Source of the DNA: Ectocarpus siliculosus
Taxonomy: Eukaryota > Sar > Phaeophyceae > Ectocarpales > Ectocarpaceae
Reading direction: 5' to 3'
Length of the DNA stretch: 64,000 nt
Assembly (NCBI GenBank): GCA_000310025.1
Contig: FN649735.1
Span: 3,382,028 to 3,446,027, forward strand
Below are positions 570 through 29,165 of this stretch, piece by piece (position 1 is the stretch's first letter; every line of letters begins with the position of its first letter). The position numbers and the translations under genes are program-made. The notes under the pieces are model-generated. The model did not search any database. It saw only the letters and a program-made list of their open reading frames with translations, and was not told the origin of the DNA.

Positions 570-675
570 TTACAAGGGAAAATAACCATGAGCGCTACAT
601 ATATAAAGGCAAATACTGTGCATCAAGCAACAACTGTTCGGCGACATGTAGCCCACATCGTCGGATACTGACGAG

Positions 676-1045
676 GTGCGCCCGAGGTCGCCGGTTGGAA
701 TCCCCCGTCCGCACTGTGATTTGTTCCTTATTTTCCTGGTTTTCGACATGTTTTTTATGCATGTTGTATTCTTTTCAACTCCACGGAATTTCCAGGGAAT
801 TCCATGGAATACCACGGAGGTTCCATGGAGTTCCACAGTATTCCATGGAAACCATGGCAAGCCATGAAATGCCACAGAATATTCTATGGCAAATTCCACG
901 GCAAGTCCCCTGGCAAATTCCACGGAATATTCCGTGGACTCCACCGCCACGGAACTCCATGGAGGTCCATGGAACTCCACGGAATATTCTATGGCATTCC
1001 ATGGAGTTCCATGGAATTGACAAATATTGTAGGGCACCCCCAGCG
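676..1045. repeat. CCATGG-palindrome satellite block inside the copia fossil
   Basis: Between about 780 and 1020 the sequence is a dense run of degenerate palindromes of the type TTCCATGGAA (variants TCCACGGAA, GCCATGGAA), spaced about 10-25 bases apart. The block is flanked on the left by unrelated sequence from about 676. It interrupts the copia reverse-transcriptase region, so it arrived after the retroelement. The same motif family forms arrays at 22.5-23.0 kb and 23.7-23.9 kb. The open frames that cross it on both strands are by-products of the repeat. Confidence 0.8.
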
Positions 1046-3384
1046 TATTATTCCAAGTACGACTGGCTGTGCGTAAACCGTAAACTGCTTGTTTCAGTTT
1101 CATGACTAGAGGGTTGCCTGGGCTTGGCCCTGGTACTTCATAGCCGCCAGCCTGTATGCAAAACGTTGGCTGGTCGATGGGGCTTTGGAGAAAAGCACTG
1201 CGTACGTAACACATGGGGACATCCCAATCGAATTGGGTCGCAATGGCTAGTAGTACCCGTATGTTCTCGACGCGACATACTGGTGCGAAGGTGGCTCCGC
1301 AGTCAATTCCTGGCCGTTGGCTCCAACCTTGACATACTATTCTGGCTTTAAAAGTGTAATCACTTTTGACTTTGAACACCCATCGGGTTCCGATCACTTT
1401 ACGGGTTGAAGGAACAGCGGATCTTGGAATGAGATCATACACTTCATTTTCTTTCAATCGTTCCATTTCTTTATCCATGACTTTCGCCCACATTTTTGCT
1501 TTTGGGGATGCTTGCGCTTCTGCGAACGTGTTCGGCAGCGATATGCTAGCTGGATCTGGATTCGATTGAACTTCCGTCTGGGATGTATATGTGTATGAAA
1601 CGATCTGTGGATACAGTGTCTCGTGTGCATAGTCAGCGCTTGGTGATGGATTGTAACTTCGCAGACTTTGTAGTTCCCGCGATGTTCTGTCGTTTACGCT
1701 TGTTCTGATGTTTTCTTGGGCTGGTCCGGATGATCTTGTTCGTCTTGGTATACCGGCGTACTGCCGTTGTTCTGGAGTTGGCGATTGAGTCCGTAATGAA
1801 CTTGGCGGAATATCAGCATCATCTTGTAAGGAATTGCCAAAAGAGTAATCAGATGGGGTTGTAGGCGGACTACTTTCCCTTTCTGAATTTGGTGATGGTT
1901 CGGAGTTTCGAATGTCGACCAAATGATTCGGAATGTTTGGTGATTGTTGAATATCGTCGCTCGATTTAGCGTGAAATATGGAGAGATGATCAAGGACATC
2001 TTCCTCATATGCTGTATCTTCCTCGATGGGATTCTCGTCGACGAGTCATGTATCAATCCTCTTTGTAGTTAGAGTTCTTGGTGTGGTCTCAATGAAAGTT
2101 ACGTTGCGGCTTTCAGTGATTCTGCGAGTGTGTGGATTGTAAATTCGGAAAGAACGACTGTCTTTCCCGTATCCAATCGTTAGTCCTTCCTAAGCTTTCT
2201 TCTCTAACTTATGAATATGCGTTTCGATGTGCACGAAGACTCGCGCTCCAACAACGCGTAGTGCAGATAGTTTAGGTATTTAACAAAAAAATTGAGTATG
2301 GCGAATCCCCGTCAAGGGCACTATGCGTTGAACGATTCATCAGATAAACCACTGTGTCACAAAATTCGCTCCAGAGGAATTTTGGTAATCCTGTGTCAAC
2401 TAGTAAGCACCGTGTCATATTCATGATAGTTCTGCCGTCTCTTCTGGATGTCCCGTTTTGCTGGGGAGTATTCGTGGCTGCGAACTCTTGAACGATTCCT
2501 GTTTCTTTGCAAAAATCCTTAAAATAATTCGCCGTATATCCACCCCCTTTATCAAACCTTAGCCGTTGAACCCGATGTCCTTGCGGTATCACGTAGTCTT
2601 GGATGAAGTAGTTTCGCGTCTCGAATGCCTGATCCTTGGAGCGGATGATGTAGACTGCTTTCCATCTCGTGTGATGATCGGTGAACTTGCTGATGTACCT
2701 TGATCCGTCCAGTGCTGTCTTGAAAGGCCCGGCTAGGTCGGTGTAGGAGAGCTCGAATGGTGTCGATGTGGTCTCGTTCGCTGTCTTGGGGTGTATCCTC
2801 TGGGTGCTTTTGCCCAGGGCGCATGTTCTACAGGGTGTCAAGGTGTCCTTAAATGAAACGCCTGTGTTGGGCTGATCTCTAAGTTTTTTCATTCTTGCTT
2901 CGTTGAGATGTCCCAATCGTTGATGCCAAATCTTCGCTGTTCTTTTCGCAGACCTTGGACGTTCGAGATCCTCCATCTGTATGACGAAGAGTTGTCCATC
3001 TTTACGAAGTGGGAACTTGCAGCTGCGGTTTTCAATTCTTGAATCGTTTGATATGATTGTTTTGAAACCTTTCGTTGACCTGCTACAGATGAAAATAGGT
3101 TTCGACCTATTCCACTAACGATTGTGATTGGGAAAGTTGCGATCTTCTTCCTTCCTTGAGAGTCGGTGACCTTGACCCTCACTTTCCCGGTAGCTGTACC
3201 GCGAAGTTGATGTTTTCCTGCAGTCGTGATGATTGTCGGATTGTCGAGCGTCTTGTACTCGAACATCCTGGTCTTCATTCCTTCGATGAGCTGGTCATCA
3301 ACGTAATGTCTTGATGCTCCACTGTAGTCATGTCTAGACTGTTTCGGTGAGTCGATCCGAACGCTGTCTGCGTTTCTGACGAGA

Positions 3385-4784: not shown

Positions 4785-5660
4785 GATCTGGCTGTGTGGG
4801 CAGCCGCGACGTGCTTGACCGTCTGTCGCCGTGCGTTTAGTACCGTGTGGGAGTTTTTGTCACGGCTCTAGTGAAGCGCGACGTGTGAGTATTTATTCAT
4901 ACCTGTTTTTAATCTTCGGACGACAAAAGCATGTTGTCCGGTGGATGTGGGGTGAGACACCCCGTCGTCTGCATTCCACCTGCAAATGGTATGCTTGACC
5001 ACCCCCTCCTCACTTGCACGGTACATCGTCTACTATTTAGGGAACCATGCGTTCAGATTTTCAAACCTTAACGTTTCTCCGCTTCAAGCCGGATGTTCTT
5101 CGCGTTTTGGTTGAATGGATAGGTCGGCGAAAGTACGTTGAAGTCTATCCGGGCCCCATCGTTTCGCGGCGCTCACTGGTGGTGGGGGCCGTCAATGCTG
5201 ACTGGACAATGCTTGTAAGGTCGAGTTACGAGTGTGGCCAGTCATGCTATTCGAGGATATCGGCTAGGGCTTGCCGTAGACGCGATGCGCGTGCTGGGCT
5301 GCGGGCTTGGGCTGCGCAGGGTAGAAGGACTCGATGCGTCCGTGGTCGATGTGTTGATAAATTGTGGCATGAATAGGCCTTTGAACACCACACGAGATCA
5401 CGCCTGTACTGTACGCGTCCGAAGGAATACATGGGGAAGTACGAGGGGGACAAAAGACACAAGAGCGTGTACTCACGCCGCCAGGAGGAGATTCGAGTGT
5501 AGGCACCAAACCTCACGAGAGGGGGAAGCCATGAAGGGATGGTTTGCGTTGCCGGGGGAGACACGAGAGAACCGCGGACAGCGGCGCAAGTAAAAACCTG
5601 CCAACAAGTGCATATGGAGGAGATATCTTGGTGCAGTGCAGAGTTAAGAAAAGGGAAGGT
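4785..5660 (+). pseudogene. Remnant of a septin-family gene tail
   Basis: The short reading CRRAFSTVWEFLSRL at about 4825-4870 matches GRRVFATVWKCLSRF at about 18750-18790, downstream of septin-like gene B. The following sequence to about 5660 matches two further copies at about 20390-20870 and 27830-28390, including the shared strings TTGAAGTCTATC and GGGCCCCATCGT. This is therefore a detached 3' end of the septin-family duplication unit, cut off on its left side by the copia fossil. It contains no complete exon. The open frames here on both strands are conserved only because the DNA is duplicated. Confidence 0.7.
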
Positions 5661-7942: not shown

Positions 7943-10900
7943 TCACACAGCTCCATATTTTATTTTGTAGTCCTCGATGAGCACATCGATGAGGACGTCC
8001 AGATGCTCCCCGCCAGAGTTCACCGCCGCCAAGATGCGTTCCCATCCTTCGAGCTGCAAGTTCGTCGTCGTCAAGGCGAAGTGCTGATTAATCATTGGGT
8101 TTTCGGACGCTGAGTAGGATGGCTAAGCCTGCATGTACTGCGCAATACGAAAGTAACACAACTGCTTTGCGATCACCTATCTCTGTTGTGCAACACCTCT
8201 ACTTTTCGGGGTGCTCACGTACTACCCCGTAGTTCCTCTGCCGTGCTCTCAAGCGTGACGACCTACGACATCCGTACGCGCTCGAGATCCGTCCTCCATG
8301 ACGCCGGCTTCTAACAGCCATGAATCTCTGCATGTATGTTTTACACATTCCTCCGATGCACCGTAAACGTCAGTTTGTCCCATCTACGACCATGAAGTCA
8401 GCTTTCAGGATCGATACAATCTTCAGGGGCAGGGTTGTCTCTAGCGACAACCAAGCTCGTATGTGCATGGCGCTAGCTTTTGGAACGTGCGTCTTTCCTG
8501 ACCGATCGTATGCACCAAAAGCGATACCTGCAGCTCACCTCCTGAATTTTTTCGATGACTTTGGCCCAGTCGGCCAGGCCCTCGGGAGGGTTGTGCATGC
8601 CTCCCCCCAAGATCGGGGGGGCGCCGCTGACCTGTACCGTTGACGAGCCAAGTAGATATGATTACCCAAGGAGCACGGTGCTTCACGCAAACTGGAATAA
8701 GAGAAACAGGAAGACTTCAGAGAGAAGTGTCTGTCCCGCGAGAAATACCCTGCTACCATTTGTTTGGGGACCAGGATTCTCTTAGTATCCATAGACAACG
8801 GGATTGGTATCGGGAACATATTGGAGAAGAAGTGAATCACAGCGTCTCACCCCGCAAAGAAGGTACGCCAGCATCACCGCGACCATGGCGCAGACCGCCG
8901 CCATCGTCAGGGCCAGAACGGACTTGGGACGGCGACCCTCAGCCTCGTGAACAACGTTGAGAGCGGCGTACGAGGCCCGCCGAGGAAGGCTCTTGATAAC
9001 GCCGACGGTAACCTCCGTTATAGGCCTTGTCTGGCAAAAATGCAAGAACACGAAATTCTGGACATGAGAAAGGGATATCAATATCTCACCCACTGTCCAT
9101 TCAACCCATCACCCTTCCCTGGCGACACGGAAACGCTTCATTGAATACGATGGCGATGATGTAGAAGCCATGCCATGGATAGTCCTACACGTTATCGCCC
9201 CAATGGGGATGTTTTGCCATGGCTGAGTCCACAACACGTGATAGAAAAACAACGGTGGGGAAAAAATTGCGCATAGGCAGGGTCTCATTATCTCTGTAAG
9301 CGTGTACTGTCAGAGTTGGTCTACAAAGTGTCGACGATGTTTGGTGGCGAGAATTTCGTATCATCGTTTGGCGATCACACATTTGGTCTGGAGCGGATCT
9401 CGCTCGGTACGTTCGTCTTTCTGCCCCAGAGAGATGTATTGTTCCCACAGTATCTGTTCGTTCTATCGTTCTTCTTCTTAAGGAATCATTTCGTTTGTCA
9501 TTGTTTTTCTTTAGGAATAGGAAAAAATACACATCAGAAGTAACTTCGTTGTTTCATTTCCCCTCAATCATCCTCTCTGTAATCCTGGACTCTCCTATTC
9601 TTCGTTGGGTTTAGTCTGGAATGTCTTACATATTTCTACGACAGCGTCAAGTGAACCGGCTACGGTTGGATAAGCGATTAGGTTCACGTCAAGTGCAACC
9701 TTGACCAGGTACCAACGTGGGAGCTTCTACTCCTACTCTATCCATGCACCTGCTCTTTAACGAAAGCTTTGTAGCGCGCCTTCATCTCGTCCTTCATGTC
9801 CTGGAAGCCCACCTCCAGCAAAAGACATTGGAGGTAGGTGTTGTCGCTGTGCGTCGTTTCCATGACACGGCAGGTGCCCCACGGGTACCTATCATCCCGT
9901 ATCATTGTGTGTGTATGGATCGTGAACGTTGAGCAGCTTTGTGTGCAAACAAGTAGTATGACTCGTGCCAAGAGAATATCCGCGAGCACTACCTAAAAGA
10001 CTATATTCGGATGGATAATTGTCTACATGATTGGCTGCTGCTGGTTGAGAAGGTAACATCGCAACCTCTGACTTTCTGTACGTGGGTTCGAATCTCGGCG
10101 CAGTCACGTGAACTGGGACGTTTCTATCAAGATGTACAAGCAATGTGGAGAGCTTTGTTTTCGTGTGTCCGCAATAATTCGTCTTCATGGTCGACGAGAG
10201 AAACGAACACGGCTGCATCTTTCCCGACAAGAAGCTTCAGGGAAGCACTGCGGAAGGGAGGGGGAGTAAAACTCCTTTGAGGCCTTCCTCTGGTCTGTGT
10301 GACTCCGGGTGATAGGTCCAGAAATCACCCCGACCGCCGATGTCCAGAATAAATGGGATGACAGAAATATTTACAAGAAAAAATGAGTGCACAGGTATGA
10401 TTTTTCGTCGAAACGGTTACGGCCCGGCGGTCGCACGACCTACCTACGTGCAGGGTTGCGGATGAGGCCCCCGTGGGGCTCGTCCACCTTGCTCGAGATC
10501 ACGGCGTAAGGGGGCGGCTGCCTTTCTCCCAGCCAGTCGGGTGTGGCAGTGAATCCTAGGGTTGTGAGGCATTCGTTCCATGACGTATCTGATTGGGCCG
10601 GAGGAAAGGTTCGGGCAAAGAGTAGTTAGTACCTTGAAGCACAGAGCGAAATAAAAAGCAAACGCCGGAATCAAACATCGCAATAGCTCTGCACGTTGCG
10701 CGATTATGTGCCGTCCAGGACGCGAATGGAAGAAAAGGAACCAGGAACTACTTGTGGGGAGGCACCACATTGAGTCGCCGCTGGGCTGCGACCAAAAGCT
10801 TTTCTAGATCCACCCACCCGAGAACTGGAAAAACTCGAGCTCATTGTCTTGAGCAGCAAGATCAACGATGCCCGTCTTGAAGTCTTTCATCTCGTCCACC

Positions 10901-13335
10901 GTCATGCTGTCGGATTTACCGATCACGGGGATTACGGCCACAGCCTGCGAAAGCGAGGTGGACGCAATTTCACAATACGATGCCACCCGCGACGACCAGA
11001 CCACCGCGGCAACGTCAGGTCAATCCCCATAATCACGTAGATATTACACGGTCGGTACATGCAGGGTAGAGGTCTCGTGATGACGACCGCGAGGCGACCG
11101 CCGCACAGTATTCCAGACAACATTCATCTGCTCGACGGTCACATCTCGCCCATTGGATACTCTGCTGCGCCAAACGGGCTTTGGCTGTACTACCTGGTAG
11201 AAGCGATCGATCAATATAATACCCTCACGCAGTCCCGACAGTACCTTGGTGAGCTGCTTCATGTACTCGATGTCGATGGGCTTGCACCGATGAGCAGCAA
11301 TGAAGTATATGCTGCGATCGCACAACAACAACGAGCGTTTAGTAATCAACAATGTGGCCAAACCCAAACCAGACGTGACACAACCAGCAGTAGCGAACCA
11401 CGTTACAGGTGTCAGAAACGATGCACGTTCGGCGGCAGTGTGTCGTTTTCAGACGAGGATTGTCTCCTACGGGCGTCCACTTGTTTGACGCACAAAGAGG
11501 AACGTTTGTGACATGAAGCAGCCATGAGAGGGAGCGACCCGCAATCCGAGAATAATTTTGTGCTGTGTTGTATTGTAAGAACAGACCGTACTACAGTACT
11601 TGTTCTCTCACCAGACGTCCGTCCTGCCGTCCTCCTTCGGTGTCTCGTTGCCCTTCCTCACTTCCGCCAGGTACCTCCTGTTCCCGTTCATGATGTAGTC
11701 TACCACCGGTTGGAAGCTTTGGCTGACATTCACATGGTCGCCGTACCCTGGGGTGTCCTGCCAATAAGGGGTAAGAAACCCATTCATTCGTGTGCAATAA
11801 ATTGCTCGCGAGGTACGGATACGATGGGTGGACACGAATCGTCAATCGGTCGGGTGTTACCAAGATCCAACAAGCACTGTAAGAACATGTGGGCGTCATC
11901 GGAAACGTTCGGGATAGTGGGGGTTAGGCGTAAGCGGAGACACTTGTGAATGAATGCCTGTGATTGTCATGCACGTGCAGTCCTATACCGACCGGTGCAA
12001 TGTAGCACAGGACATGAACCCAAACGAACGCAAACGCACCAACCCTAACCCTGAGCAATTCATAGACATGAGGCCGTACCACCAAGAAGAACTTGTAGTC
12101 CTGTCCTCGTTCCGTTTTATAGTCAAACTCGCGCTCTTCGATACTGAGCGTCTTGCCGTTGTCGAAAACGCCTCTGCCTGCGGCCTGTACCACGGTGGCA
12201 GCTTGGTCCATCGGATTTTCGCCTCGATTGAGATGCCGAAAGATGTTGTTCAGGAACGTCGTCTGGGCGTGGTGTTGATCGGTCGGCAAACAAACATCAA
12301 GGGGTGGAGAGGGCCATTGCGGTTGATACCCCCAACGCAGAGAACGGCGGTGGGGCGATGAGCAAAATAGGGTTGTGCTTTCTTTGGCTTCGAAGTCCAC
12401 CTGTTGCATTGGACAGATAGTCTTTGTGGTGGATGAATGAATAGCGAGGCACGAACCAGGTTGGCGCGACGATGCATTAAGTGTGTCACGCGCTGGTGCC
12501 TACGAGTTTCAGAGAAGACAGGCCTAAATTTCACGAAGATGTGGCTGTACCAGTAGAATACCATGTCCTTCTGCGCGACTCGGGTAAGTTCCTGTTGTCC
12601 TTCAATGCGTGCACAAGGGCGGACACCCGAAGCCGCATGAGCAACAGACTCCGAACGGTTCGACAAATAGTCTAGCTCTGTCGGCAAAACTTATTTGCAA
12701 CTTTCGCTGCAATCAATGGCTCTAGACTAGGTAGCAGACGCGCGTTCGCAAGAACCAAAGCAAGCCATTGAAGGGGGGGAAACCTGTAGCAGCGAATACA
12801 CAAGACGGTTCGCCTATCAGAGAGGAAATCCTGTTCGCCTGAAGAGGGGCTCTCGATGGAGAAAATATCTAACTACATGTGCATGTACATCAAACCTGTC
12901 CAGCTCCAGTATCTAAGCTTTTCGTATGGGAGTGCCGACGCATGAGGTGTGTGTTCAGCACAACTTCTTCTGTCCATGAAGCAACACTTATACGACATGC
13001 AGTTGTTCATCTCGGCGAAACAGTTCAAACTCGCGGTTGTTCTGCTCACTGCGGGCGTACAGCGATGTGAGGGCGAACTCACGCTCACTCGGACGGTAGC
13101 AGTGCCAATGCCGAAAGGACTCCGGACTTGCCTTGCCTAGCCCACTCTCGCCCGCCACCATGACTCGTAGCTGGTCCGGTGCTTGGCTTTTCTGTGGAGG
13201 TCCTGGTACGCGTACACTGGCGCCCACAACGGGGGAGTCCATGCCGGAGTCAGTCGCCATGGTTGTATTAGGAGGCATCCTTGCAATGAGTGTGGCTGCG
13301 GTAGAGGACGAACGCGCTTGGTGTGCGCACCACAT
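7943..13335 (-). CDS. Septin-like GTPase with C-terminal membrane helix (gene A)
   Basis: This is a spliced septin-family gene with ten exons: 13335-13132, 12262-12080, 11757-11612, 11311-11245, 10944-10818, 10588-10444, 9888-9750, 9030-8851, 8631-8539 and 8053-7943. Phases join without a break to give 464 aa. Septin features in order are the P-loop GESGLGK|TT across the exon 1/2 junction (about residue 62-70), the switch II DTPGYGD (130-136), KPIDIEYMKQL (about 188-198), the G4-type GKSD (209-212) and the septin-specific RYPWG (291-295). Exon 8 adds a single predicted membrane helix (about 374-396). Exons 9-10 encode a short tail with GLADW. Intron 1 uses a GC donor (AAG|GCAAGT). The first ATG was taken; in-frame ATGs at 13278, 13260 and 13242 are alternatives. 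Septins polymerise at membranes and division sites; the membrane anchor here is inferred from sequence. It is head to head with gene B. Confidence 0.85.
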
Positions 13336-13803
13336 TGATTATTGAGACGGATGATTGGTCGGGATATATATATTTTTTTTCTTAATTTTTCTATCACGGC
13401 ATTCAGCTAGGACACGAGCCATACGCGAGGCCTCGAACAGTCGTCTATTCACACATCGTCCTAGTCTACCTGCTTGTACCACGTGCGACGACCGCCACCC
13501 GATCCAATCTTGGAATAATGAACTATCATGGGATTGCTGTGTTGCACATTCCGACAACGTGGTCGCAAATGCGAACATCGGTAGTCAGTACAACCGAGTG
13601 AGCGCACAGGATGGTGAAGTTACGGAAATGACTACATATTTTTGACGATGTTGATCGGGCTGGGGTGCTTGCGGCCAACAAGAAAATATCCATTACGCTG
13701 AGGCCGTCTAGAAGCAGAGCTGGAAAAGAAGGACGCGCGCGCGAGGGAGAGAGAGACAGAGACAGAGACAGAGACAGACAGACAGACAGACAGGCAGACA
13801 GGC

Positions 13804-13841
<38 letters not shown>

Positions 13842-14360
13842 GGCAGACAAGAGGTGAGTGTGGAGAGCTCCTCCCTGAACAGAACATTTATTAGAAAGCT
13901 TCTGCAGATACGACCGTCGTATTGGGTACCGCAGGTGACAGCGGGTAGAACACACAAACGCCAACCGCCAACCGACACATCACGCCGGCTCTTCTTGCGG
14001 CGCAACTGTGTGTATGGGGCGCAATCATCTTACGGGTCGATACGTCTGACAGGTACAACTACCGCACTGTTGTTAAAACTGCTGCACTGCCTGTACATCA
14101 ACATCATCAGCGGACTATTCCTACGAAAGGGTTGGCCCGTTGGCCCCAAAAGCTCTTGCCCAAACTACGACACTCTACGTGTACAATCAATGCACACTCT
14201 ACACTACCGATGATCCACCATCATCCATCTTTCAATCGACAAGTTTCGATTATCCCAGAGATGTTCCACCGAGCAATCGCCACACCGCAGTCTCAGCCAT
14301 TTCCCCTACAGCTGCCTGCAGCTGTAGCTCGAGTAGCTTGTGTACATTCTGCTGACGAGC
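13336..14360. promoter_or_regulatory. Divergent spacer between septin genes A and B, with GACA microsatellite
   Basis: The two septin-like genes start about 1 kb apart on opposite strands, so this spacer should hold both promoters. I see no clear TATA or initiator element that I would defend. A purine-rich microsatellite runs at about 13751-13838: (GA)n, then GACAGA, then an almost pure GACA tract interrupted by GGCA. A short AT-rich stretch with alternating TA followed by a T run lies at 13370-13392, just upstream of gene A. Open frames across the microsatellite are artefacts. Confidence 0.5.
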
Positions 14361-17300
14361 ATGAACTTCCCAGTCGCCGCATTCGATGGTTCTTTTGTTT
14401 CTCCAAGCCGCCAAAATGGCCCGCGCAGACCTGGAGATCCAGTACGCAGGCAAGCACCGAACCAACTACGGGTCATGGTCGCGGGCGAGAGTGGGCTCGG
14501 AAAGGTCAGTCCCCGGCGGATGGATGTGAGGTTTGTATGTCTGTGTGCGTGGAAACTTGACCCACAACATTTGGTTTGTATCCCTCTCATTGACGAAGGT
14601 CGCCAGCAACTGAGGTGGCAAATGATGGATGCTTGTCTATTATAGTGCATACATACAAGTAGCCTCGGGGTCCGGCAGATCCGAAATAAGGGGCCGCTGC
14701 AACTTCTTGAAAATGAGTGGAGTAAAGTGCGATGCGATTTCTACGCGAGTAGAATATTGCCCCGAAGGGTGAGTGTAAGTTCGAAAACAACGAATGTCTC
14801 GCTGCCTGTGGCAGGCACGTATTCAGCACGTACACATGAAACAAAAGTTCTTGTTTCCCACTTGCGAGAAACTGCGGAATGCGTGTCTCGCAACAACTCA
14901 TCGAGGGATAGGTGGCTCGGCGAAGATAGGGCGTAAATACTTTGCGGCTCTTTCGCTTCAATTCAAATGACCGCGTTGTGTAGGAATAGTTTCAGTGCTA
15001 AAGAACATGTAACGACCACTCCCCCCTTGCCACCAAACCGTTGTGACGACTCCCCCCGTGCCACCAAACCTTTGCTTTGACCGGTACTGTTTTTCGTACG
15101 TCCAGACGACATTCCTGAACAACATATTCCGGCATCTCAACCAAGGGCAAAACCCCATGGACCAGGGTTCTGTCGTGCATGGGCAAACAGGAGGCATTTT
15201 CGGCCACAGCAAAACGCTCAAGATCGAAGAACGCGAATTTGACCACACGACATCCGGCGGCCAGTACTACAAGTTCTTTTTGGTGGTGCGGTTGTCAAAG
15301 CCGCGTATCACACTGACATCTATCGATTTTTGTCGATGTTGCGGCTTGGCAACCACGGACATTCATTTACCACGAGGACATGTAGTCAAGCAAGTCCTCC
15401 TGCCATAGAACGACGTCCTACGTGCTTCTGTCGCGGGTGTCGATGTCCGACGATACCCACTACCGAAGACCCTCCTTTGTGGGACGTACAATAGTGCGCC
15501 ATCTCGATGGCCTCCCTGCAACTAAGACGTCTCGAACTATGTATGTACTGTACATCTTGGCAGGACACACCCGGATATGGCGACCACGTTAATGTCCGCA
15601 AAAGTTTTCAACCAGTGGTCGATTTCATTATCAGAGGGAGCAGGAGGTATCTGGCTGAGATAAAAAGGGGCAACGACACTCCGTCGGAGGACGGCAGGAC
15701 GGATGTGTGGTGAGTTGAGATCAATGTACATTCGGTCCCTCCACCAACTGAGCTGGTCAGCATGCGAACCACTGTACGATGCAAATTGGTGAAAGTAGGT
15801 GTAATGTATGATTGATGATATAATGTTCAGTAGATTCATTCATTGATCTGAAACAACATCCGCATTAGTGACGTTTTCGCCTGAGCTGCAACCAAGCGGT
15901 CGCATGCCCCACGAGCGTCTCTGACTCAACGTTTGCCCCGATCGTGTTCCGCCGGACATACAGCATACATTTTATCGCAGCCCATCGGTGCAAGTCCATC
16001 GACATCGAATACATGAAGCAGCTGTCCAAGGTGCGGGACAGAAGATTGACAGTTCCACTCTTGTGCGACACGATTGCCGAACCACCGCCAACACAAAAGT
16101 AAGATCTTAAGGCTGGATAGCTAGTCACGACCTCGGGTTGTGCGCAGTGTACTGCCGTCGCCTGATAGCCGGTCCTGGGCCTATCTGGTTGGCGACATTT
16201 GTTGGGAAAGGCTTGACCTTTTGCTACGGTCGGTGTTCATGACCCAACGAGAGACGGTTGGTTCAGCTCTTCCCCGTCTTTTGCTCATCCCCGTTTTGGG
16301 CAGGTTGTTGCTATGATTCCCCCCGTGATAGGGAAGTCCGACAGTATGACGGTGGACGAGATGTTTGACTTCAAAAAGGCCATCGCCGACTCAGCCGCCA
16401 AAGCTAACGGCCTCGAGTTCTTCACCTTTTCGGGTGGGTGGTGTTTCGGACGCATTGCGGCTTCCCTGGTGACACCACGAGCCAGTTCTCCAGCCCCCTT
16501 CGGAGGCTAGGGATTAGGTGCTTACACGTTGTTGTAGGTTTCCTGTTTTTCCGTACATGGCACTGGATAACTGGCTAACAGCAGAGTCACATTTAATCCC
16601 GGTTTCCGTTGCTAAATGATACTGTCGGGCAGAGAGGGCATGGGAAAAGTGCTTGGCAGCCCTGAACATTGCCGATGAACCCATCTGGCTGGGAGAGAGG
16701 CGGCCACCGCCGTACGCGGTGATCTCAAGCCAGGTCGACGACCCCAACGGAAACGCTCACGCTCACGATCCAGTACGCAGGTGGTATTGCTGTGTTCGAG
16801 CCCGTGCGTGTCTGGCCTATGCAAACAAAAATCGACTTTTGGCGTTCAGTCTACAGTGCGCCGATTCCAAATGTTTTGCGTCGGGTGGGTCACGGGCTGG
16901 AACCAATCCTCTCCACCCGAAGCCCTCGAAACTAACCAAAGTCCCACCCTTGATCTCATTTCCTGTCGCACCAATGCCCCTGGTCTCACAGATATCCATG
17001 GGGTGAGTGTCACGTCATGAGACCGGAGCACAGCGACAATACTTACCTTCAATGCCTCCTTCTGGAGGTGGGATTCCAGGACATGAAGGACAAGATGAGG
17101 AAGCGCTATGAAGCCTTCAAAAAGCAAGAGGTTCGAACAAGGTCGACTTCCTCGGATTCTTGTGTGTTGCGGCAGCCCTTGGAGAGTTGTTGTATCGAAA
17201 AAATCATTTGGGCATGAATGATCACCACCACATGTTGTGGGTGATTTGTTTGAAGCATGGGTCACACCTGTTGGAAATACTTTCTAGGTCCAATGACGTG

Positions 17301-18291
17301 TGGAACAAAGCTATTGCAACGTGTGAACCAGGGGAGTCGACGTTTCTACCGTACGGTGTACCACTATCAACGCACTGGACACTGATTACGTCGGAACTAT
17401 AGCGTGTCGGTGTCGCTGTACTTGTCCACCCCACTGGTTCCATGCCTCCTGACAATGCATCACGATCGTACAGGCGAAGCCTCTGGTGACACGAGTTGGA
17501 GAAAAAAATCGGGAGTATCGCCTTGCCATTGCCTCCGGCAAGCCGTCGACTATCTTAGTGGTGCTGGCGGTGATTTTCGCATTTGTGGCGGTGATTCTGG
17601 CAGCCACTCAGGTACATGCGGTGCTAGCGATCCACCCGTTTGCAAGCCTTGAGTGCATCCTAGATTTTGTTTCGTTTATCCATCCAGTTAAAAAGTGACA
17701 TGATACAATGGTCGAAGTGGCATTAGGCTCCTCCATCGCGACATTGAAATCGGTTGGAATCATGAAAGTCTGAAGACCCGACGATGTCGTTGTATTCACA
17801 ACTTACCATTTTCTCAGGTGAACGGAAACGAGCCTTCCACGGGACTGGCTGATTGGCGCGAATTGATTCTCAAGATTCAGCAGGTGAGGTCGTGTGCTGC
17901 TTCAAGGGCCTTTCCATGCGTGGCACACACCAGAGGATAACTTCGCGAGAAGTTGACGTTGCAAGCCAATGATGGATAAACATTCCTGTCTTGTGGTGCT
18001 TGGCGCTCATCAGCGCGTATCGTAGTGTTTGTGCCAGCTTCCGACCTAATATACTCTACACAGCTGTAAACGGCGTTGAAACCCTTTTTTCGGTGGAACT
18101 CTTGACAGGTCGAAGGATCGGACCGCATCGTGACGACGGTGGACTCCGAGGAGGAAACCCTGGACGTCCTTATGAAGGTGCTGATGGACAACCGCAAGAT
18201 TTGGACCTTCCGAGGAGGCCCAGGTCGGTCTGGCCATCTTTGCTCAGAATATCATGGTACGCTTGTTGAACACGGAGAGGGGGGTTCCTGA
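14361..18291 (+). CDS. Septin-like GTPase with C-terminal membrane helix (gene B)
   Basis: This paralogue of gene A has ten exons: 14361-14504, 15106-15285, 15564-15709, 15964-16030, 16304-16433, 16633-16780, 16992-17130, 17474-17611, 17818-17883 and 18109-18291. The lengths sum to 446 codons plus stop with phases identical to gene A. Visible motifs are GESGLGK|TT at the exon 1/2 junction, DTPGYGD (109-115), KSIDIEYMKQL, GKSD (189-192) and RYPWG (272-276). A membrane helix (about 343-363, core ILVVLAVIFAFVAVILAA) follows, then GLADW in exon 9. Intron 1 has a normal GTCAGT donor. Exon 10 contains a frame change relative to sister copies near KIW; read straight through it ends at the TGA at 18289-18291, much as gene A ends. 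If a longer tail is real, the donor at 18257 (ATG|GTACGC) would be used instead. The N-terminus starts at the first in-frame ATG giving a compact exon (MNFPVAAF). Confidence 0.82.
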
Positions 18292-18818
18292 GACAAGATA
18301 CGATGGTCACGTTCGCCGGATACTCCCAACAAGAACGAAAAGGAGTGATTTCCGCGTTGTTCCCATCTTCACCATTCCTCCGTCATCCACCCGCCTCGTA
18401 TCAACAGCGGGAAGCACCATCAGGTAGAAAAGCTGCGACAATCGGAAAGGACCCCGGCGCCAAGGGAACAGATCGCCCCCAGGTTCCGGATAAACGAGTT
18501 ACTCAGTCTACCGGCACACAAACGAGTGGCTCCACCACAATGTCCGATGATGGATCTTCGCGAAACAGCCAATCTCTAGGGAAGACAGAGGAGCCGACGA
18601 GTCCCCCCTCCACAAGCGATCCCGAAATCGAATCCGATATGCCGGTGATTAGCATCTACTATCCTTGGGTATTCGGCACTCTCGGTTCTCCTTGCAATCT
18701 GTGGCCTTGGTGTTTGGGCAGTCGTGGCGTTCTTGAAAGTCGGTAGACGTGTGTTTGCTACCGTGTGGAAGTGTTTGTCACGCTTTCGTGAAGCACAACG
18801 TTTGAACAAGATTGCTTG
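18206..18818 (+). other. Possible alternative 3' coding tail of septin B (Ser/Thr-rich, then membrane helix)
   Basis: After KIW in exon 10, a different frame reads SEEAQVGLAIFAQNIM and ends at a GT donor (18257). A CAG acceptor at 18405-18407 then opens a Ser/Thr/Pro-rich stretch (18408-18650, with GTQTSGSTT). In yet another frame, 18660-18818 encodes a hydrophobic helix (ALSVLLAICGLGVWAVVAF) and a basic tail ending at a TGA. The same order of pieces recurs in the neighbouring copies, so this was once coding. Either gene B has lost the tail through small indels, or the tail belongs to another transcript. Sequence alone does not settle this. Confidence 0.45.
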
Positions 18819-18842: not shown

Positions 18843-19460
18843 AGCGCTAGGAGATTTGCACGGAAACCCCCGAGGAGGCGCAGGTCGGTCTGGCTATCTT
18901 TGCCCAGAATATCACGGTACCCTTGTTGAACGTGGAGAGGGGGCGGGTGTTGAGACAAGATACGATGATCGCGTTCACGGGATACTCCCGACAAGCACGT
19001 TGTAATGAGTGGTTTCGGCGCCGTTCCCGCCGTCTTCGCTGCTCCGTCGTCTACCCGCCTCTTTCTCATTCAGGACACATCATCACAAGCTGCAAAAGTT
19101 ATAATCGAAGAAGGGGCCGCCACACAGGAAGCAGATCTCCCTCAACCAGCGACTTGGCCTGCTGGCACACAAACGAGGGGCTCCATCACTACCCCCAACG
19201 GTGTTCCTCGACAAACGGAGGGGGCGCTGGGGAATCCGAGGGAGCCAGACGAGTCCGGTCCCGCTGAATTGGACTTGTCGGAGATATCTAACCTTTTGTT
19301 TTGTGTTGTGCAACTCTCGGTTGCCGTTGCCTTTTGTGGGTGTGTTCTGTGGGGAGTAGGAGGTCTGTAAAGAAAGGTTAATTGCCGCCTTGTGGTATTT
19401 TTTGTCGGTGCTCCGGTGAAGCATGACGCGCAAACATATTTCCGCCTAGAGCAGTTGTTC
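18843..19460 (+). pseudogene. Tandem partial copy of the septin B 3' end
   Basis: The reading TPEEAQVGLAIFAQNIT followed by GTACCC at about 18855-18917 repeats 18206-18260 almost exactly. An Ala/Pro/Thr-rich frame (about 19090-19270, with GTQTRGSIT) and a hydrophobic segment (VVQLSVAVAFCGCVLWGV) then follow in the same order as in gene B's tail. No GTPase exons precede it. This is a roughly 0.6-kb tandem duplication of the end of the gene, without the rest. Confidence 0.7.
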
Positions 19461-19689: not shown

Positions 19690-20870
19690 TCACATCTTCG
19701 CGTTGGGGAAGAATCGGCAGAGCAGATGGCAAACATGGCCGGGATGTATATCCTTCTGCAGTATGGCCTCGTATAGCCTCCGCGTACTCTCGATCCGAAA
19801 TGACGAGTCCCGCGACAACTACATTAGGCTGCAGTAGTATTCCAGGCTTCATATAGCGCAGTCACGGAATAGAGAGCCTATCACCTTGAGATTGCCCCGA
19901 GGTGAACGAGTGTGCGTTCGAAACAAAACGGTGTCTCGCACTGCTGCGGCAGGAACATACACATGAGAAAATCCGCAAGAAGGAGGGAACAACAAGGTTT
20001 GTTTTCCCAAATCCTCGCGCAATCCACTGCAGACCACGTTTGTGTCCCGCTCCAACAACCGATCGGGGGACGGGTGAAGTGATGGCTAGACGTAGATGAG
20101 CTGGAGTTTTTTCGCCCCGTGCTTTCGATTTCTTGCTCACGGTGGTCATCACCCTCTTTTTTCGTCTTCGGATGAAAGAGCATTAAACTGGTGTATGTAG
20201 GGTTGGACACCTCTTTGCCTGGGTTGCACCCGCGAAAGGTGACTCGTCCACCCACTCCGTACTTGCCGCAGTACTGGAGAACTCGCAACTGATCAACAGT
20301 AGTAGCTTCTTGTCCTCTTGTTTTACCCTTCTTGCCTGCGAACCTCGAAGTATCTCCAACTCAAACCGGATGGGATTCACCACTCGTTGCACACGTAGGT
20401 CGGCAACCTGCGTTGAAGTCTATCTGGGCCCCATCGTATCACCCGTTGCGCTGGCGGCGGAGTTCACCAATATTCTAGGTGTTGACAAGTTTGGGTGGGG
20501 TCGGTCGAGCTGCGACTGCCACTATCGCCAGTCTTGTTTTTGTGGGATTACGGCTAGGGTCTGTCGTAGATGCAATGCGCGTGCTGAGCTGTGGGCTTGG
20601 TCCGTGAAGGGTAGGACGACTCGTGTATGTGTCCACGCTCGATGTGTTGAATGGTCGTGGAAAGGGTAGGCCTTTGGACACCAGACGGTATCACACCTGA
20701 TTTTCTTAGCGTTTGAAGGCATACGGGGGGAACGTACAAGGGACACCAACGATACACACGGCGTGAGGACGAGCTTCGAGTTTAGGCACCAAAACACACG
20801 GGAGGCGGAAGCTATGAAGGGGCGGACTTCGTTACCTATTGCTGCTGTGTATTGCCACATGTAGATCATA
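19690..20870 (+). pseudogene. Chimeric septin-family fragment: intron-1-like then tail-like DNA
   Basis: From about 19690 to 20100 the DNA matches the first intron of the septin family, as seen at about 14600-14990 and 25500-25890. Shared words include TAGCCTCGTATAGCCTC, GTGTGCGTTCGAAA and TACACATGAGAAA. From about 20110 to 20870 it matches the gene-tail unit at 4900-5600 and 27590-28260. The P-loop exon and all other GTPase exons are absent, so this is a rearranged, non-coding relic. Confidence 0.65.
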
Positions 20871-23017: not shown

Positions 23018-23672
23018 TAACCCCTTTAGGGCTGGATCGCCTTTTGGGGACACTTTTTGTCCCCATCTTCTTCGCCTGCTTTACCTCGCGAAGATTGTCA
23101 TGATTGTCTCCTCCTTTGCACTACTCGACCAGGGGGGTGCCAGGGTACACAGGGACGACTCTAGTCTAGTATGGATGCTTTGTAGAGTGGAGGAGTATGA
23201 GGTATGAGGGTAATGAACAGGTCGAATTGCGGGGCGATTGCGCTGCCGGTTCAACAGCGAAGTTGCGCCGCGTCTGTTTACCCTTGGGTGGAAAGCACTA
23301 CCAGGGGCAAGCGCGGAAGAAGTACCTAGACCACCGTTGATAGGAGGCACCAAGCAACCTAGGGCTTGAGTTAGAAGGTCTCGCTTTCCCTCTAGAGAAA
23401 TGTCTTGAAAACCTCCTTTTCGTGCCCCGTTTACCACGCTTCCGCCAGTTGCTGTCTATAATCCCTATCAATTGTCCCCTCGTGTCCCCTCGTATCGAGG
23501 GGACAATTGATAGGGATTATAGACAAGAGACGGCTCAAGTGGGAAGGCAGCTTTGCACTTGCACCCAGGGATGGAACTGTCTGCACCATCCAATCAGCAG
23601 GCGTCGTTCGCTCTTTTTCTTACATTTCAGAAATTTCGCAAGACCGCCGATTTTTCTGTGCGTGGTAAGGGG
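23018..23672. repeat. Dispersed 0.65-kb repeat, copy 1
   Basis: This block is nearly identical to 28513-29165 in the same orientation. It starts CCCCTTTAGGGCTGGATCGC and ends GTGGTAAGGGG, so short inverted ends (CCCTTTA/TAAGGG) are possible. It contains a near-perfect hairpin (23453-23525). Open frames on both strands (for example minus 23437-23081, starting MVNGARKGGFQD) are shared by both copies because the copies are young; I recognise no protein family. It is most likely a non-autonomous mobile element. Confidence 0.75.
23453..23525. repeat. Hairpin-forming palindrome in dispersed repeat copy 1
   Basis: Two 30-base arms (from TGTCTATAATCC to GTCCCCTCG, and the exact reverse complement ending GGATTATAGACA) flank a 13-base loop that itself repeats TGTCCCCTCG. 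Pairing across the arms is complete. Confidence 0.9.
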
Positions 23673-24159: not shown

Positions 24160-25260
24160 TGGCAGCAGCGCCCTTCTCGCCGGTGCCCTTTGTATTATGC
24201 AGCACTTGGTGCCAGCAGAAGCATATAGCGGCGTCGAGAGTGAAGACGGGTGCGAACGGCTATGTGCGGACCCTGCGTTGTCAAGACCGGACCATCACGC
24301 ACAATGCCGTACACTGTGGCACGGGAGCGCACCATCACGCACCCGCCGCACGCCATACTACGTACATTTCGCAGGGACTCCTGTCAGCAGGTTCTGTGCA
24401 GTTGAGCTGCACGAAGAAATCGGAACAGTTGCGTGTACTGGAGTATGTACCGGAGTACTGGAGTACCGTAGATGATACGGTTCTGAACCAGGTGAACCGT
24501 GAACCACTATGAAAGGAAGGAGATTGTCCCGCAAATCCATTGAATCGGCAAATCGATACTTTTACTTGCTGAGATGCACCTGCCGACCTGCCGTCCTAAC
24601 CGCACCCTCTTCTCGCGCACCCCTACCCAGAGGCGGTAGAGGAGCACGCCACAGGTCTCAATATTGTGTAGATTGCGCAAGACATGTCCCGCCGCGCTTG
24701 CAATCCTATGGGGTACCGAGGTGTGATTACTGTGCTGTTGTTCGGTCCCACGTATTCCCCCCCACGTACCATCTCATGTACATCAATCATCGTTCCATCG
24801 ACCGAGGAACGATGATCCGAGTGATGATCTACCGAGCAATCGCCACACGGCCGTCGTCAGCCATTTCTTGCACATACTGTAATAACGTCTACCATAAGCT
24901 GATCGATAATTCGGGTGGCTCAGTTGTGTGTGATGGGAGCGTAGAGCAGCTCGGCCATGACGGGCCGCACGGGTAGGTAAAGACGTGTAGACGTGGTGAA
25001 AAACGTGTTGTATTCATCGGGGGCGTGCTTGAGCTCGTCATTCCATCACGGCATCAAGTCACGCATAACGCTTTAATACCCAGAACGAATCTCCATGAAT
25101 CTCCACCAATCTACTACACTCCCAAGGAAAACACAAAGAAACTTCTTGTCCCTCCGTAGTTCGTCACTGCAATCCCCGCATATGTATACGCAATATACCA
25201 CCCCCATGCTATGCTACGAGTATATCGAATATAAGCTTCCTCTCCGCCCTGTTGAATTGC
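24160..25260. other. Spacer without recognisable gene
   Basis: Open frames of 60-155 codons on both strands lack motifs, hydrophobic segments and splice support. From about 24800 the sequence begins to resemble the region upstream of septin gene B (ATCTACCGAGCAATCGCCACAC here; CACCGAGCAATCGCCACAC at 14266), so the end of this stretch is the 5' flank of septin copy C. Confidence 0.5.
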
Positions 25261-25261
25261 A

Positions 25262-28200
25262 CCATGTTTCCAAGCCGCAAGGATGACGCGCGTGGACCAG
25301 GAAATCCAGCGCGCAGGCAAGTACCACCGGACCAGGAACGGGTCAAGGTCGAGCGCGAGCGCGGGATCGGAAAGGTCAGTCCCCGGTGCGTGGCTTGAGA
25401 GCCGCAAGCTCTAATGCGACACTATTGTGTATGTACGTACATGGGAACCCTGGACTGTCCACACTACTCCCTATCGTCTCGTTGACCAAGCATCGCCAGG
25501 ACTAATCGGCAAACGTGGCCAGGATATCACCTATGCCCTTACGTAGTATAGCCTCGTATAGCCTCGGGGTCCTATCCAAAACTATGAAATGACGATTCCG
25601 GCTACAACTACTGCCGTACAGGCTATTATTCACGCTTCATTTGCCGCTCTCTACGGAAACGAGAAATGCCACGAGGGAGAAGTGTGCGTTCGAAATAGAA
25701 TATCGTACTGCTTGACGACATACTGCTTGTGGGAGTCACGTACACACACGAGAAACACCGCAACAAGGAGTGAACAACTTTTGGTTTCCCTTTCTCGTCC
25801 AACTACTTAATACATATCCGGCGAAACAAAAGATCGGCGGATGGCGAGATGATGGCCCGACGGAGATGGGCGGGATTTTTCTAACCAAAACGTTTCGTCC
25901 CACTCTTTCGTCTATTTCATGGACACCTGCAGGAGACTTCCGCCAACATTGAACGCTCAGTGCGAAAGAACACGCAGTTGCTTGTAGTTCCAACTGGGTC
26001 CCCATCGCCTGGTACTGTACCTTGTGTTTTCAGGCGAAGCCTCACATGAACAATATTGGAGAGACCGCTCCGGAATATCGCCACACCGCTACGCCCGGCG
26101 GCAGGTCGTCGATTCTCTTGGTGGCTCTCACGATGATCTGCGCCTTGCCTGGGGGGGTTCTGGCCAACCTGCAGGTATTTTTTGTGCTAGTGGTTCGCCC
26201 GATGTGGCGGGTGCGTACCGCGAGTGCATCCTCGATGGCAGCTTGGTTAGACGTGAAAAAATTCAGTTGTTCTCATCATGTAGCGGCCTTGGCTCCTCCA
26301 TCGCCACTTCGTCCTCGGTTGGAATCACGGAAGCCCGGAGACCGACGGTAGCGTCGCAATTACAACAACACCGTTTTCTGTTGTATTCTTATCCCTTACC
26401 CAGATCATTCGATGTAAATATTGGATTTGGTTGGGTGAGGCCTCCTGCGCCTGCAGGAGGGCCTCGCCACAAGTAACCCTTTGGGCTGGGTGTGCCCAGG
26501 CCCAAAGTGTTTGAATGATCAGTAAGTTCATGAATATAGTAAGCATTGTGTAGGGCGGGTGGGATGGTCTCAAATATACCCCTTATTCTCTGCTCCGGCA
26601 AATTTCGGGAGAGAAAAGGGGGACTAAACTAGGTGGGGTCGTTTTCCAACATCCTTTCTGGAATATCTGACTCTTCCTGATTTCGTTCCGAGATTACTCA
26701 GGGAAATTTGGCGAAGAACTCACGCAGTTTGGATGGAGCCGAGCCCCCAAAGGAGCGAAGACATTCTCAAGATTTAATGGGTGAGTGGTGTGCTGCAACA
26801 AGGGCCCTTCCGTGCGTGGTGCACACCAGAGGTCGCTTACGCGTGAAGTAAATAACGACTAAAGCAGAACAACCTAGGTTATCCCTTCCTACTTATTGGA
26901 TGTAAAGCTCAGTGGCGCTACTTTACAATCGATTTCGACGTCATTTTTGGTCGGGGAACAGTCGCCGTTTGCTTGGCACTCGCAGGCCATACTATTCTTG
27001 AAAGTCTGTATGTTCGACAATATTGATTGACTGCTTGTTCGGCAGTAGTAATGGCTTTGTTGGTTCTCGTTGGCCTTCTGTGGGTGGTTCTTCCGGAAAG
27101 GTATATCTCCGCTCGAGATCACGAAATCGAATGCCATTTGCCGATTTCATCAGGTATCGTTTCGACTTCTTTTTTGGTTCGGGAACAGTCGCCGTTTGCT
27201 TGGCACTCGGAGGCCATACTATTCTTGAAAGTTTGCATGCATTGCCTGATGTTCGACAACATTGATTGATTGGTGCTTGTTGTGCTTCTGGGAACACGTG
27301 TAATTGGTGCTTGTTGTGCTTCTGGGAACACGTGTAATAGCCTGGGAGGCGCACCTCCCCCGGCTATCACGAAATCGAATCTCATTTGCCGAGATCAACG
27401 AAAATCTACTGCTTGACGTAGATTTGTTTTTCCGGAGTAGTCTTGGCTGTCTTCGCAATCTGTAGCCTTGTCTGAGCATTCGCCACGTTCTTCAAAGCCG
27501 GTAACCGTGTGATTAATACCATGCGGAAGTTTTGTTGTCACTCTGGCGAACTACCATGTAAGGTATTTATTCATCCAAAGTATTTGCTCGCAGTGGTCAT
27601 GATCCTCAGTTTTCGTCTTGGGATGTGTAGAGCACGTAAGCCGATTTTCGTAGAGTTAGACACTGAGTTGCACCTCGATAATTCACCCACTCCTCACTCG
27701 CGTGGTACTTGAGAACTTGTTGCAACTGATCTCCAGCAGCAGGAGCTTCGTCGTGCTTTTGCTTCACCCTTGTCACTTGAGAAGCTCGAAGTATCTCCAG
27801 CTCATACCGGATGTGATCCACCATTAGATGCGCGCAGGCCGGTGACCTTCGTTGAAGTCTATGCGGGCCCCATTGTTTCACCCCTCGGGCTGGCGGCGGG
27901 GTGCACCAATAGACGTTGACTACTTTGGTAATGTCGGCCGAGCTGCGAGTATCACTGTCGCCAGTCATGAAATTCTAGGGTCTACCGTAGACGCCATCCG
28001 TACGAGGTTGTGGGCTCGGTCCGCGTAGGGTAGGATGACTCATGTGTCCACAGTCGATATGTTGATAGGCCGTGGAACGGGTAGGCCTTCGGATACCAGA
28101 CGGTATCGCACCTGGTTCTCTAAGCGTTCGAAGGCATTCGGGGGGAAAGTTCAAGGCGGGCAAACGATACCGGAGTGTGCACACAGCCGCCCGGACGAGA

Positions 28201-28390
28201 TTCGAGCGTAGGTACTAACATACGGGAGGGGGAAGCCATGAAGGCGTGGTCGTCGTTACCGGGGGGGGGGGGACGAGAGAGACGAAGACAGCGGCGTACG
28301 AAAAAAAAGCGCCGACAAATGCATGAGGCGGAAATATCCTGTTGCAACGTAGAGGGACCCGGCATGGACGCGTTTCTTCGTAGACAATAC
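25262..28390 (+). pseudogene. Septin-like copy C, lacking exons 2-7
   Basis: The first exon (25262-25374, MFPSRKDDARGPGNPARRQ) is recognisable, but its P-loop has decayed to ERERGIGK. It keeps the donor AAG|GTCAGT. Family intron-1 sequence then runs directly to an acceptor at 26035 followed by exon-8-like sequence (AKPHMNNIGETAPEYRH, then a membrane segment ILLVALTMICAL, donor at about 26175). The exons with switch II, GKSD and YPWG are gone. A degraded exon-9 region lies near 26700-26770 with intron bases matching gene B. Repeated versions of the C-terminal membrane segment follow (26940-27480), then the common tail unit (27590-28390). It is a deletion derivative without a GTPase domain. Whether it is transcribed cannot be told. 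Confidence 0.75.
26925..27480 (+). repeat. Repeated septin-tail membrane segments and a 34-base tandem repeat
   Basis: A stretch containing CGGGGAACAGTCGCCGTTTG and CCATACTATTCTTGAAAGT occurs at about 26950-27010 and again at about 27180-27235. A third diverged version (TCTTGGCTGTCTTCGCAATC) lies at 27445-27500. Each corresponds to the hydrophobic tail segment downstream of septin B. A 34-base unit (ATTGGTGCTTGTTGTGCTTC...) is repeated exactly at 27269 and 27303. Confidence 0.7.
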
Positions 28391-28512: not shown

Positions 28513-29165
28513 CCCCTCGACCCCCTTTAGGGCTGGATCGCCTTTTGGGGACACTTTTGTCCCCATCTTCTTCGCCTGCTTTACCTCGCGAAGAATAGCA
28601 TAATTGTCTCCTCCTTTGCACTACTCGACCAGGGGGGTGCCGGGGTACACAGGGACGACTCTAGTCTAGTATGAATGCTTTGTAGAGTGGAGGAGTATGA
28701 GGGTAATGAACAGGTCGAATTGCGGGGCGATTGCGCTGCCGGTTCAACAGCGAAGTTGCGCCGCGTCTGTCTACCCTTGGGTGAAAAGCGCTACTAGGGG
28801 CAAGCGCGGAAGAAGTACCTAGACCACCGTTGATAGAAGGCACCGAGCAACCTAGGGCTTGAGTTAGAAGGTCTCGCTTTCCCTCTAGAGAAATATCTTG
28901 AAAACCTCCTTTTCGTGCCCCGTTTACCACGCTCCCGCCAGTTGCTGTCTATAATCCCTATCAAATGTCCCCTCGTATGTCCCCTCGTAACGAGGGGACA
29001 TTTGATAGGGATTATAGACAAGAGACGGCTCAAGTGGGAAGGCAGCTTTGCACTTGCACCCAGGGATGGAACTGTCTGCACCATCCAATCAGCAGGCGTC
29101 GTTCGCTCTTTTTCTTACATTTCAGAAATTTCGCAAGAACGCCGAATTTTCTGTGCGTGGTAAGG
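28513..29165. repeat. Dispersed 0.65-kb repeat, copy 2
   Basis: This is the second copy of the element at 23018-23672, in the same orientation, with only scattered differences and a slightly different loop in its hairpin. It begins just after the septin-tail unit of copy C and ends at GTGGTAAGGG. A short minus-strand frame (28930-28661) repeats the one in copy 1. Confidence 0.75.
28946..29020. repeat. Hairpin-forming palindrome in dispersed repeat copy 2
   Basis: The same 30-base-arm hairpin occurs as at 23453-23525. It differs by one base in the left arm (TCAAATG for TCAATTG) and by the matching base in the right arm (CATTTGA for CAATTGA), so full pairing is kept. The loop is 15 bases. Confidence 0.9.

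Follow-up and report, generated by a model that had tools for sequence, protein, structure and literature searches.

Delic et al. 2024 (PMC11238149) report a transmembrane (TM) helix in 44% of Group 6A and 43% of Group 7 septins, place Ectocarpus siliculosus in Group 7, and find an arginine finger in 91% of the septins of that group, while the finger has reportedly been lost from certain duplicated septins in many algae and protists. According to the same paper, homodimerization of the Chlamydomonas septin requires the arginine finger, the finger and a threonine of switch I are associated with dimers formed across the G-interface, and Groups 6B, 7 and 8 show little conservation of the residues of the NC-interface. 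The Sep3 arginine of algal septins has been described as contacting the gamma-phosphate of the adjacent subunit (PMC8640212). Animal septins with functional TM domains are reported by Perry et al. 2025, Current Biology, as cited in PMC13262245 and PMC11238149, and a broader review of protist septins exists (PMC8801916). Here we analyzed a window of 64,000 nucleotides from E. siliculosus (C10:3382028-3446027 of a 189-Mb assembly of 492 contigs) that contains two adjacent septin genes, A and B, each encoding a septin GTPase domain followed by a predicted TM helix.

The septins described for Groups 6A and 7 (PMC11238149) share with A and B the septin GTPase, the Sep3 arginine finger, the switch I threonine and the C-terminal TM helix, which is predicted in our case; unlike that description, the locus holds two head-to-head paralogues with decayed relatives elsewhere in the genome. 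The likeness to Group 7 is one of the arginine finger and the other shared features, which makes A and B candidate members of that group, and the passages of Delic et al. considered here do not say how the septin genes of brown algae are oriented. The Chlamydomonas septin resembles A in that the Sep3 region aligns without gaps and the His-Arg is conserved, but that alga is said to have no other septin, and a TM helix is given only as possible (PMC11238149), whereas A and B are duplicated. Animal TM septins (Perry et al. 2025, cited in PMC13262245) have in common with A and B a TM helix, predicted here; they are opisthokont, and Groups 1-4 are reported to lack the arginine finger (PMC11238149) that A and B have. 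The statement in the original prediction that some algal septins carry a TM helix was correct and had already been published (PMC11238149). Among the matches listed from open-licence PubMed Central (titles and starts of abstracts), Delic et al. 2024 was the main paper on septins of these algae, and a search there for septin, head-to-head and algae gave none on algal septin genes by title. Anchored algal septins are already known, and the pair is a good new example, not a new kind of system.

Gene models and septin domains of the pair

We built the gene models of A and B by eye, using splice sites and the comparison between the paralogues. Gene A lies on the minus strand (13278-7943) and gene B on the plus strand (14361-18291), so that the two stand head to head, and each consists of 10 exons and 9 introns, with nine junctions and not the ten counted originally. 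The exon phases of B (0,0,0,2,0,1,2,0,0,0) were identical in A. The divergent orientation recurs in a second pair on contig C72, in which B is broken; both the identical phases and the orientation had been predicted. All nine introns of B are GT-AG, as are eight of those of A; the exception is intron 1 of A (GC-AG), and its GC donor is also present in the A copy on C72 (A2). The region between the two genes, when compared with the 832-bp region of the C72 pair, differed at 162 of 777 aligned sites (0.21, intron-like) and contained many gaps. The products of A and B are 445 and 446 residues long and 60% identical.

The two products scored 170.4 (A) and 150.3 bits (B) against Pfam Septin (PF00735), which has a curated cut-off of 26.2 bits, and the matches spanned profile positions 4-268 and 4-270 of 280, respectively. 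Septins are recognized by the motifs G1 GxxGxGK[ST], G3 DTPG, G4 KxD and the septin-specific RYPWG, and both proteins contained the full set; GESGLGKTT, DTPGYGD, GKSD, RRYPWG and GLADW were read directly in A and B, in agreement with the predicted septin signature and GLADW tail. Protein A matched 44 distinct chains of solved structures, all named septins or yeast septins, with the best match covering residues 36-308, and a profile made from four copies (440 positions) also matched 44 solved chains, best over positions 36-316. Among the chains, 5IRR ('Septin-like protein' in PDB), which we take to be the Chlamydomonas reinhardtii septin, was matched over A residues 28-314.

We noted that the Sep3 stretch of A aligned with 5IRR without gaps and with the His-Arg of the two in register; human SEPT7 has His-Gly at this place. 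B has His-Arg in the same alignment column, and the pair of residues was present in all seven copies in which exon 4 was found. Similarly, the switch I threonine of A (KTLSIEE) aligned with that of SEPT7 (KKTVQVEQ), B has a threonine in the same column, and the residue was present in seven of seven copies with exon 2 found. A and B are both probably active GTPases.

In gene B the last 27 residues of exon 10 are read in another frame than their counterparts in B3 and B4 on C72, and the end of this exon and the DNA downstream are tandemly repeated (18210-18397 and 18870-19061, 81% identity), with hydrophobic stretches following in one frame of each repeat. A search for further exons of B past 18291 gave a hydrophobic stretch at ~18.65-18.75 kb with no third-position excess relative to B3. 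This test has little power because the start of exon 10 shows no such excess either: of the 13 differences between B and B3 in its first 90 bases, 9 are at first, 1 is at a second and 3 are at third codon positions.

Predicted membrane segment and a candidate G-dimer

We called TM segments by hydropathy and position. The sole strong hydrophobic segment of each protein is encoded by exon 8, its start being at about residue 355 for A and 343 for B. The best Kyte-Doolittle window of 19 residues reached 2.43 in A and 3.15 in B, as against 1.14 and 0.79 for the best window more than 20 residues away from the segment, and shuffles of the whole protein equalled the best hydropathy in 15 of 2000 cases for A and in 0 of 2000 for B. 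Both segments contain a 19-residue stretch without charged residues, with octanol-scale sums of -6.4 kcal/mol in A and -10.5 kcal/mol in B. The segment lies 39 (A) or 25 (B) residues beyond the Pfam match, whose last residue is 316 in A and 318 in B. Of the 44 matches of A to solved septins, 40 ended at residues 304-318 and four at 326-344; of the 44 matches of the profile, 38 ended at positions 308-320 and six in the linker (325-348), one of these near where the hydrophobic stretch begins. Since the matches end before the segment, we place the putative helix after the GTPase domain, as is the case for septins with a single C-terminal TM helix. The predicted hydrophobic helix in a separate exon, C-terminal to the septin domain, was thus recovered by hydropathy and match ends, and it appears to lie outside the GTPase fold.

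To orient the segment we counted basic residues in the 20 positions before and after the helix and obtained 3 versus 0 in A, 5 versus 1 in B, 7 versus 1 in A2 and 4 versus 0 in B3. The excess before the helix in all four copies tested favours a cytosolic GTPase domain with the acidic tail on the far side of the membrane.

We favour, with a probability of about 0.6, the reading that A and B are probably active GTPases, each anchored by a C-terminal helix, that work as arginine-finger G-dimers under GTP control. Each paralogue, presumably expressed, would be fixed in the membrane by its single C-terminal helix, with the GTPase domain on the cytosolic side and, across the membrane, an acidic tail of ~68 residues in A or ~86 in B. 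Each subunit would supply its arginine finger to the GTP of its partner across the G-interface, which makes a membrane-anchored G-dimer the likely unit, and this dimer could be A/A, B/B or A/B. It would assemble and turn over with GTP hydrolysis and may mark or stiffen a membrane domain.

Septin family, sequence constraint and alternative readings

The genome was searched with A and B, and only the best candidates were scored, so that the locus counts are lower bounds. Septin exons were identified on five contigs (C10, C72, C488, C310 and C236), and beyond these the searches gave only weak single matches, on C4 (E-value 0.13) and C26 (E-value 0.94). Seven further copies were aligned exon by exon, giving a family of at least nine loci including A and B. 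A2 on C72 was open in all 10 exons and is adjoined head to head by B2, which has a frame break in exon 3; this second A/B pair (C72:71892-82733) is colinear with the window pair over ~10 kb at 71-75% identity. B3, also on C72, was open in nine readable exons, its exon 1 not being found at a place that adjoins a run of N. B4 has a stop in exon 3, the A-type copy A3 (C488:44092-46794) is decayed, and B5 and B6 were represented by exons 6-10 only within the stretches examined. Three loci were thus open throughout (A, B and A2), one was open as far as readable (B3) and five were broken or truncated, and the A/B pair belongs to a small birth-and-death family. A pattern scan for viral relatives, made on viral contigs only, gave 216 matches, none confirmed.

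Two of the doublings among the copies may reflect the assembly. We rejected the B3/B4 head-to-head pair on C72 as firm evidence, as the two flank a 1.3-kb run of N (C72:59407-60719) and are 96-97% identical; this doubling in opposite orientation may be an assembly artefact. B5 and B6 (C310 and C236) may be one locus, being 97.6% identical over 8.4 kb. A contaminant or second species as the source of C72 was rejected by means of one neighbouring window gene (an S4-domain protein by eye), for which the genome gave a single strong match and a single weak one (E-value 0.8); judged by this one gene, it is unlikely that a second related genome is present in full. Alleles are expected to diverge by far less than 0.21-0.22, and at this corrected intron divergence C72 and C10 were also rejected as alleles.

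We compared the copies to find where change had accumulated, using nonsynonymous (dN) and synonymous (dS) divergence. Introns of A and A2 differed at 687 of 3,726 aligned sites (0.21 corrected), and coding divergence overall was lower (dS 0.15, dN 0.09). Amino-acid change in the GTPase exons 2-7 lay below intron divergence, with dN values of 0.014, 0.072, 0.019, 0.052, 0.149 and 0.046, while dN was 0.20, 0.12 and 0.20 in exons 8, 9 and 10. Between B and B3 (exons 2-10) dN/dS was 0.32, intron divergence 0.22 and exon 8 dN 0.16; the dN of 0.42 in exon 10 is inflated because the frame differs at the exon end. A and B themselves gave a dN/dS of 0.24. The GTPase exons therefore appear mostly constrained, and the anchor exon appears to change at about the neutral rate and yet remains hydrophobic. 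Counts of nonsynonymous to synonymous changes were ~42:6 in exons 8-10 against 36:28 in exons 2-7 for A/A2 (Fisher p = 4e-4), and for B/B3, where exon 10 was excluded because of its frame difference, 17:8 in exons 8-9 against 36:50 in exons 2-7 (p = 0.02); these tests used rounded counts and are uncorrected, including for the choice of split. Weak constraint on the sequence of anchor and tail is the simplest reading, and positive selection on them is possible.

A membrane-anchored heteromeric filament, in which A and B would alternate through G- and NC-interfaces, had been proposed originally. The two paralogues are adjacent, have a common upstream region, are 60% identical and both carry the hydrophobic anchor segment, all of which would suit such a filament, but neither the filament nor the proposed co-expression of the pair goes beyond conjecture. 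A G-dimer fits better with the arginine finger and switch I threonine that both proteins have retained; the finger is linked to G-dimers, and little conservation of the NC-interface residues is reported for Groups 6B, 7 and 8 (PMC11238149). At C72, moreover, an open A stands beside a frame-broken B, and since B2 lost its frame in exon 3 while A2 is open, an obligate A/B partnership there is unlikely. We regard a filament of A and B together as possible but unlikely. It is rather doubtful that exon 8 is a cassette whose skipping yields a soluble septin beside the anchored form, although the exon starts and ends in phase 0 in both genes, so that skipping keeps the frame, eight of nine copies have an exon 8 length divisible by three, and UNC-61 of C. 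elegans has a TM-bearing transcript isoform (PMC11238149). Exons 2 and 9 are symmetric too, which makes symmetry alone weak support. Regulated cassette exons often have conserved flanks, but introns 7 and 8 are no better conserved than the rest: they differed by 0.20 and 0.24 between A and A2 (0.18 for all introns) and by 0.23 and 0.18 between B and B3 (0.19 for all introns). We consider it very improbable that the segment is a surface, amphipathic or hairpin anchor that does not span the membrane: amphipathic helices are reported for many septins (PMC11238149), but the uncharged 19-residue stretch in A and B and its octanol sums argue against this.

Several observations weigh against the favoured reading of anchored G-dimers, and some of them would suit a locus that is mostly a decaying gene family, with A and B still open but little used. 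Five of the nine septin loci are broken or truncated (A3, B2, B4, B5 and B6), the end of the last exon of B is in another frame than in the C72 copies, and the overall dN/dS of A versus A2 was 0.63. Its values by exon included 0.65 (exon 1), 0.66 (exon 3) and 1.10 (exon 6), and judged by the last two the constraint on the GTPase domain is uneven. We also performed random-substitution trials on exon 8 (2000 each, stop codons deleted) at the round values of 15% or 40% change, although A and B in fact differ at about half of the aligned sites of this exon and not at 40%. With 15% change the peak hydrophobicity of A2 was reached from A in 3 of 2000 trials and that of B3 from B in 19 of 2000, and with 40% change the peak of B was reached from A in 0 of 2000; the observed peaks thus mostly exceed what random substitution yields, which speaks for the anchored reading. 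The peak of A, on the other hand, was reached from B in 104 of 2000 trials at 40%. Trials at or above 1.6 numbered 1605 (from A) and 1921 (from B) of 2000 at 15% change, and 451 and 804 of 2000 at 40%. Since most trials at 15% stayed at or above 1.6, hydrophobic A2 and B3 segments are expected without selection; the test is crude and partly contrary, and retained hydrophobicity alone is weak evidence of constraint. Against general decay, A, B and A2 are open over ten exons and B3 over nine readable ones, and amino-acid change in the GTPase exons is below intron divergence; we hold decay to be improbable.

Other features of the window and significance

The features of the pair, together with degenerate septin fragments further along the window, are listed in Table 1.

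Table 1. Positions of the septin gene features in the window
Feature	Position	Strand	Basis
A exon 1: start codon, N-terminus, P-loop GESGLGK; GC donor	13132..13278	-	gene model
A exon 2: remainder of G1, switch I including KTLSIEE	12080..12262	-	gene model
A exon 3: DTPGYGD (G3)	11612..11757	-	gene model; Pfam match of exon
A exon 4: Sep3 region AAHRCKPIDIEYMK; arginine-finger codon 11287-11289	11245..11311	-	alignment to 5IRR
A exon 5: GKSD (G4)	10818..10944	-	gene model
A exon 6	10444..10588	-	gene model
A exon 7: RYPWG, end of GTPase domain	9750..9888	-	gene model
A exon 8: linker and predicted transmembrane segment (~8854-8922)	8851..9030	-	hydropathy, flanking charge
A exon 9: GLADW tail	8539..8631	-	gene model
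A exon 10: acidic tail, stop	7943..8053	-	gene model
Candidate shared promoter: 1,082 bp between start codons of A and B	13279..14360	.	compared with C72 pair
B exon 1: start codon, basic N-terminus, P-loop	14361..14504	+	gene model
B exon 2: switch I including KTLKIEE	15106..15285	+	gene model
B exon 3: DTPGYGD	15564..15709	+	gene model
B exon 4: Sep3 AAHRCKSIDIEYMK; arginine-finger codon 15986-15988	15964..16030	+	alignment to A
B exon 5: GKSD	16304..16433	+	gene model
B exon 6	16633..16780	+	gene model
B exon 7: RYPWG, end of GTPase domain	16992..17130	+	gene model
B exon 8: linker and predicted transmembrane segment (~17546-17605)	17474..17611	+	hydropathy, flanking charge
B exon 9: GLADW tail	17818..17883	+	gene model
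B exon 10: acidic tail, stop	18109..18291	+	gene model
Degenerate septin fragments: exon-1-like 25240-25380, anchor-exon-like 26031-26177	25240..26177	+	sequence similarity

The window contains repeats of other kinds. An element of 0.5-0.7 kb occurs three times in the same orientation (5120-5643, 20133-20836 and 27584-28260; ~70-72% identical), with its copies near both ends of the septin pair and beyond. A 650-bp direct repeat (23021-23671 and 28522-29166) has 95.6% identity, its copies being more alike than the septin genes of the window are to any copy elsewhere. Open frames on the minus strand at 570-3114 resemble, by eye, pieces of the integrase and reverse transcriptase of a copia-type retrotransposon. 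The genome gave 87 matches to light-harvesting genes, five of them on the small contig that holds the decayed A3, and the matches of the one gene tested were to fucoxanthin chlorophyll a/c proteins, with chain 9ygv FCP17 as the best in PDB (2e-97); judged by this gene, the organism is a fucoxanthin-bearing alga.

It is conceivable, if doubtful, that the family grows by copying the head-to-head pair, keeping the arginine-finger GTPase constant while the anchor and far-side tail change at a near-neutral rate, in which case new copies could reach different membranes or partners. Septins that anchor themselves by a TM helix are known, but how they work outside animals is little established. The open genes A and B, with their predicted anchors and arginine fingers, together with the open A2 and with B3, form a natural set for asking whether such septins act as G-dimers or as filaments, and at which membrane.

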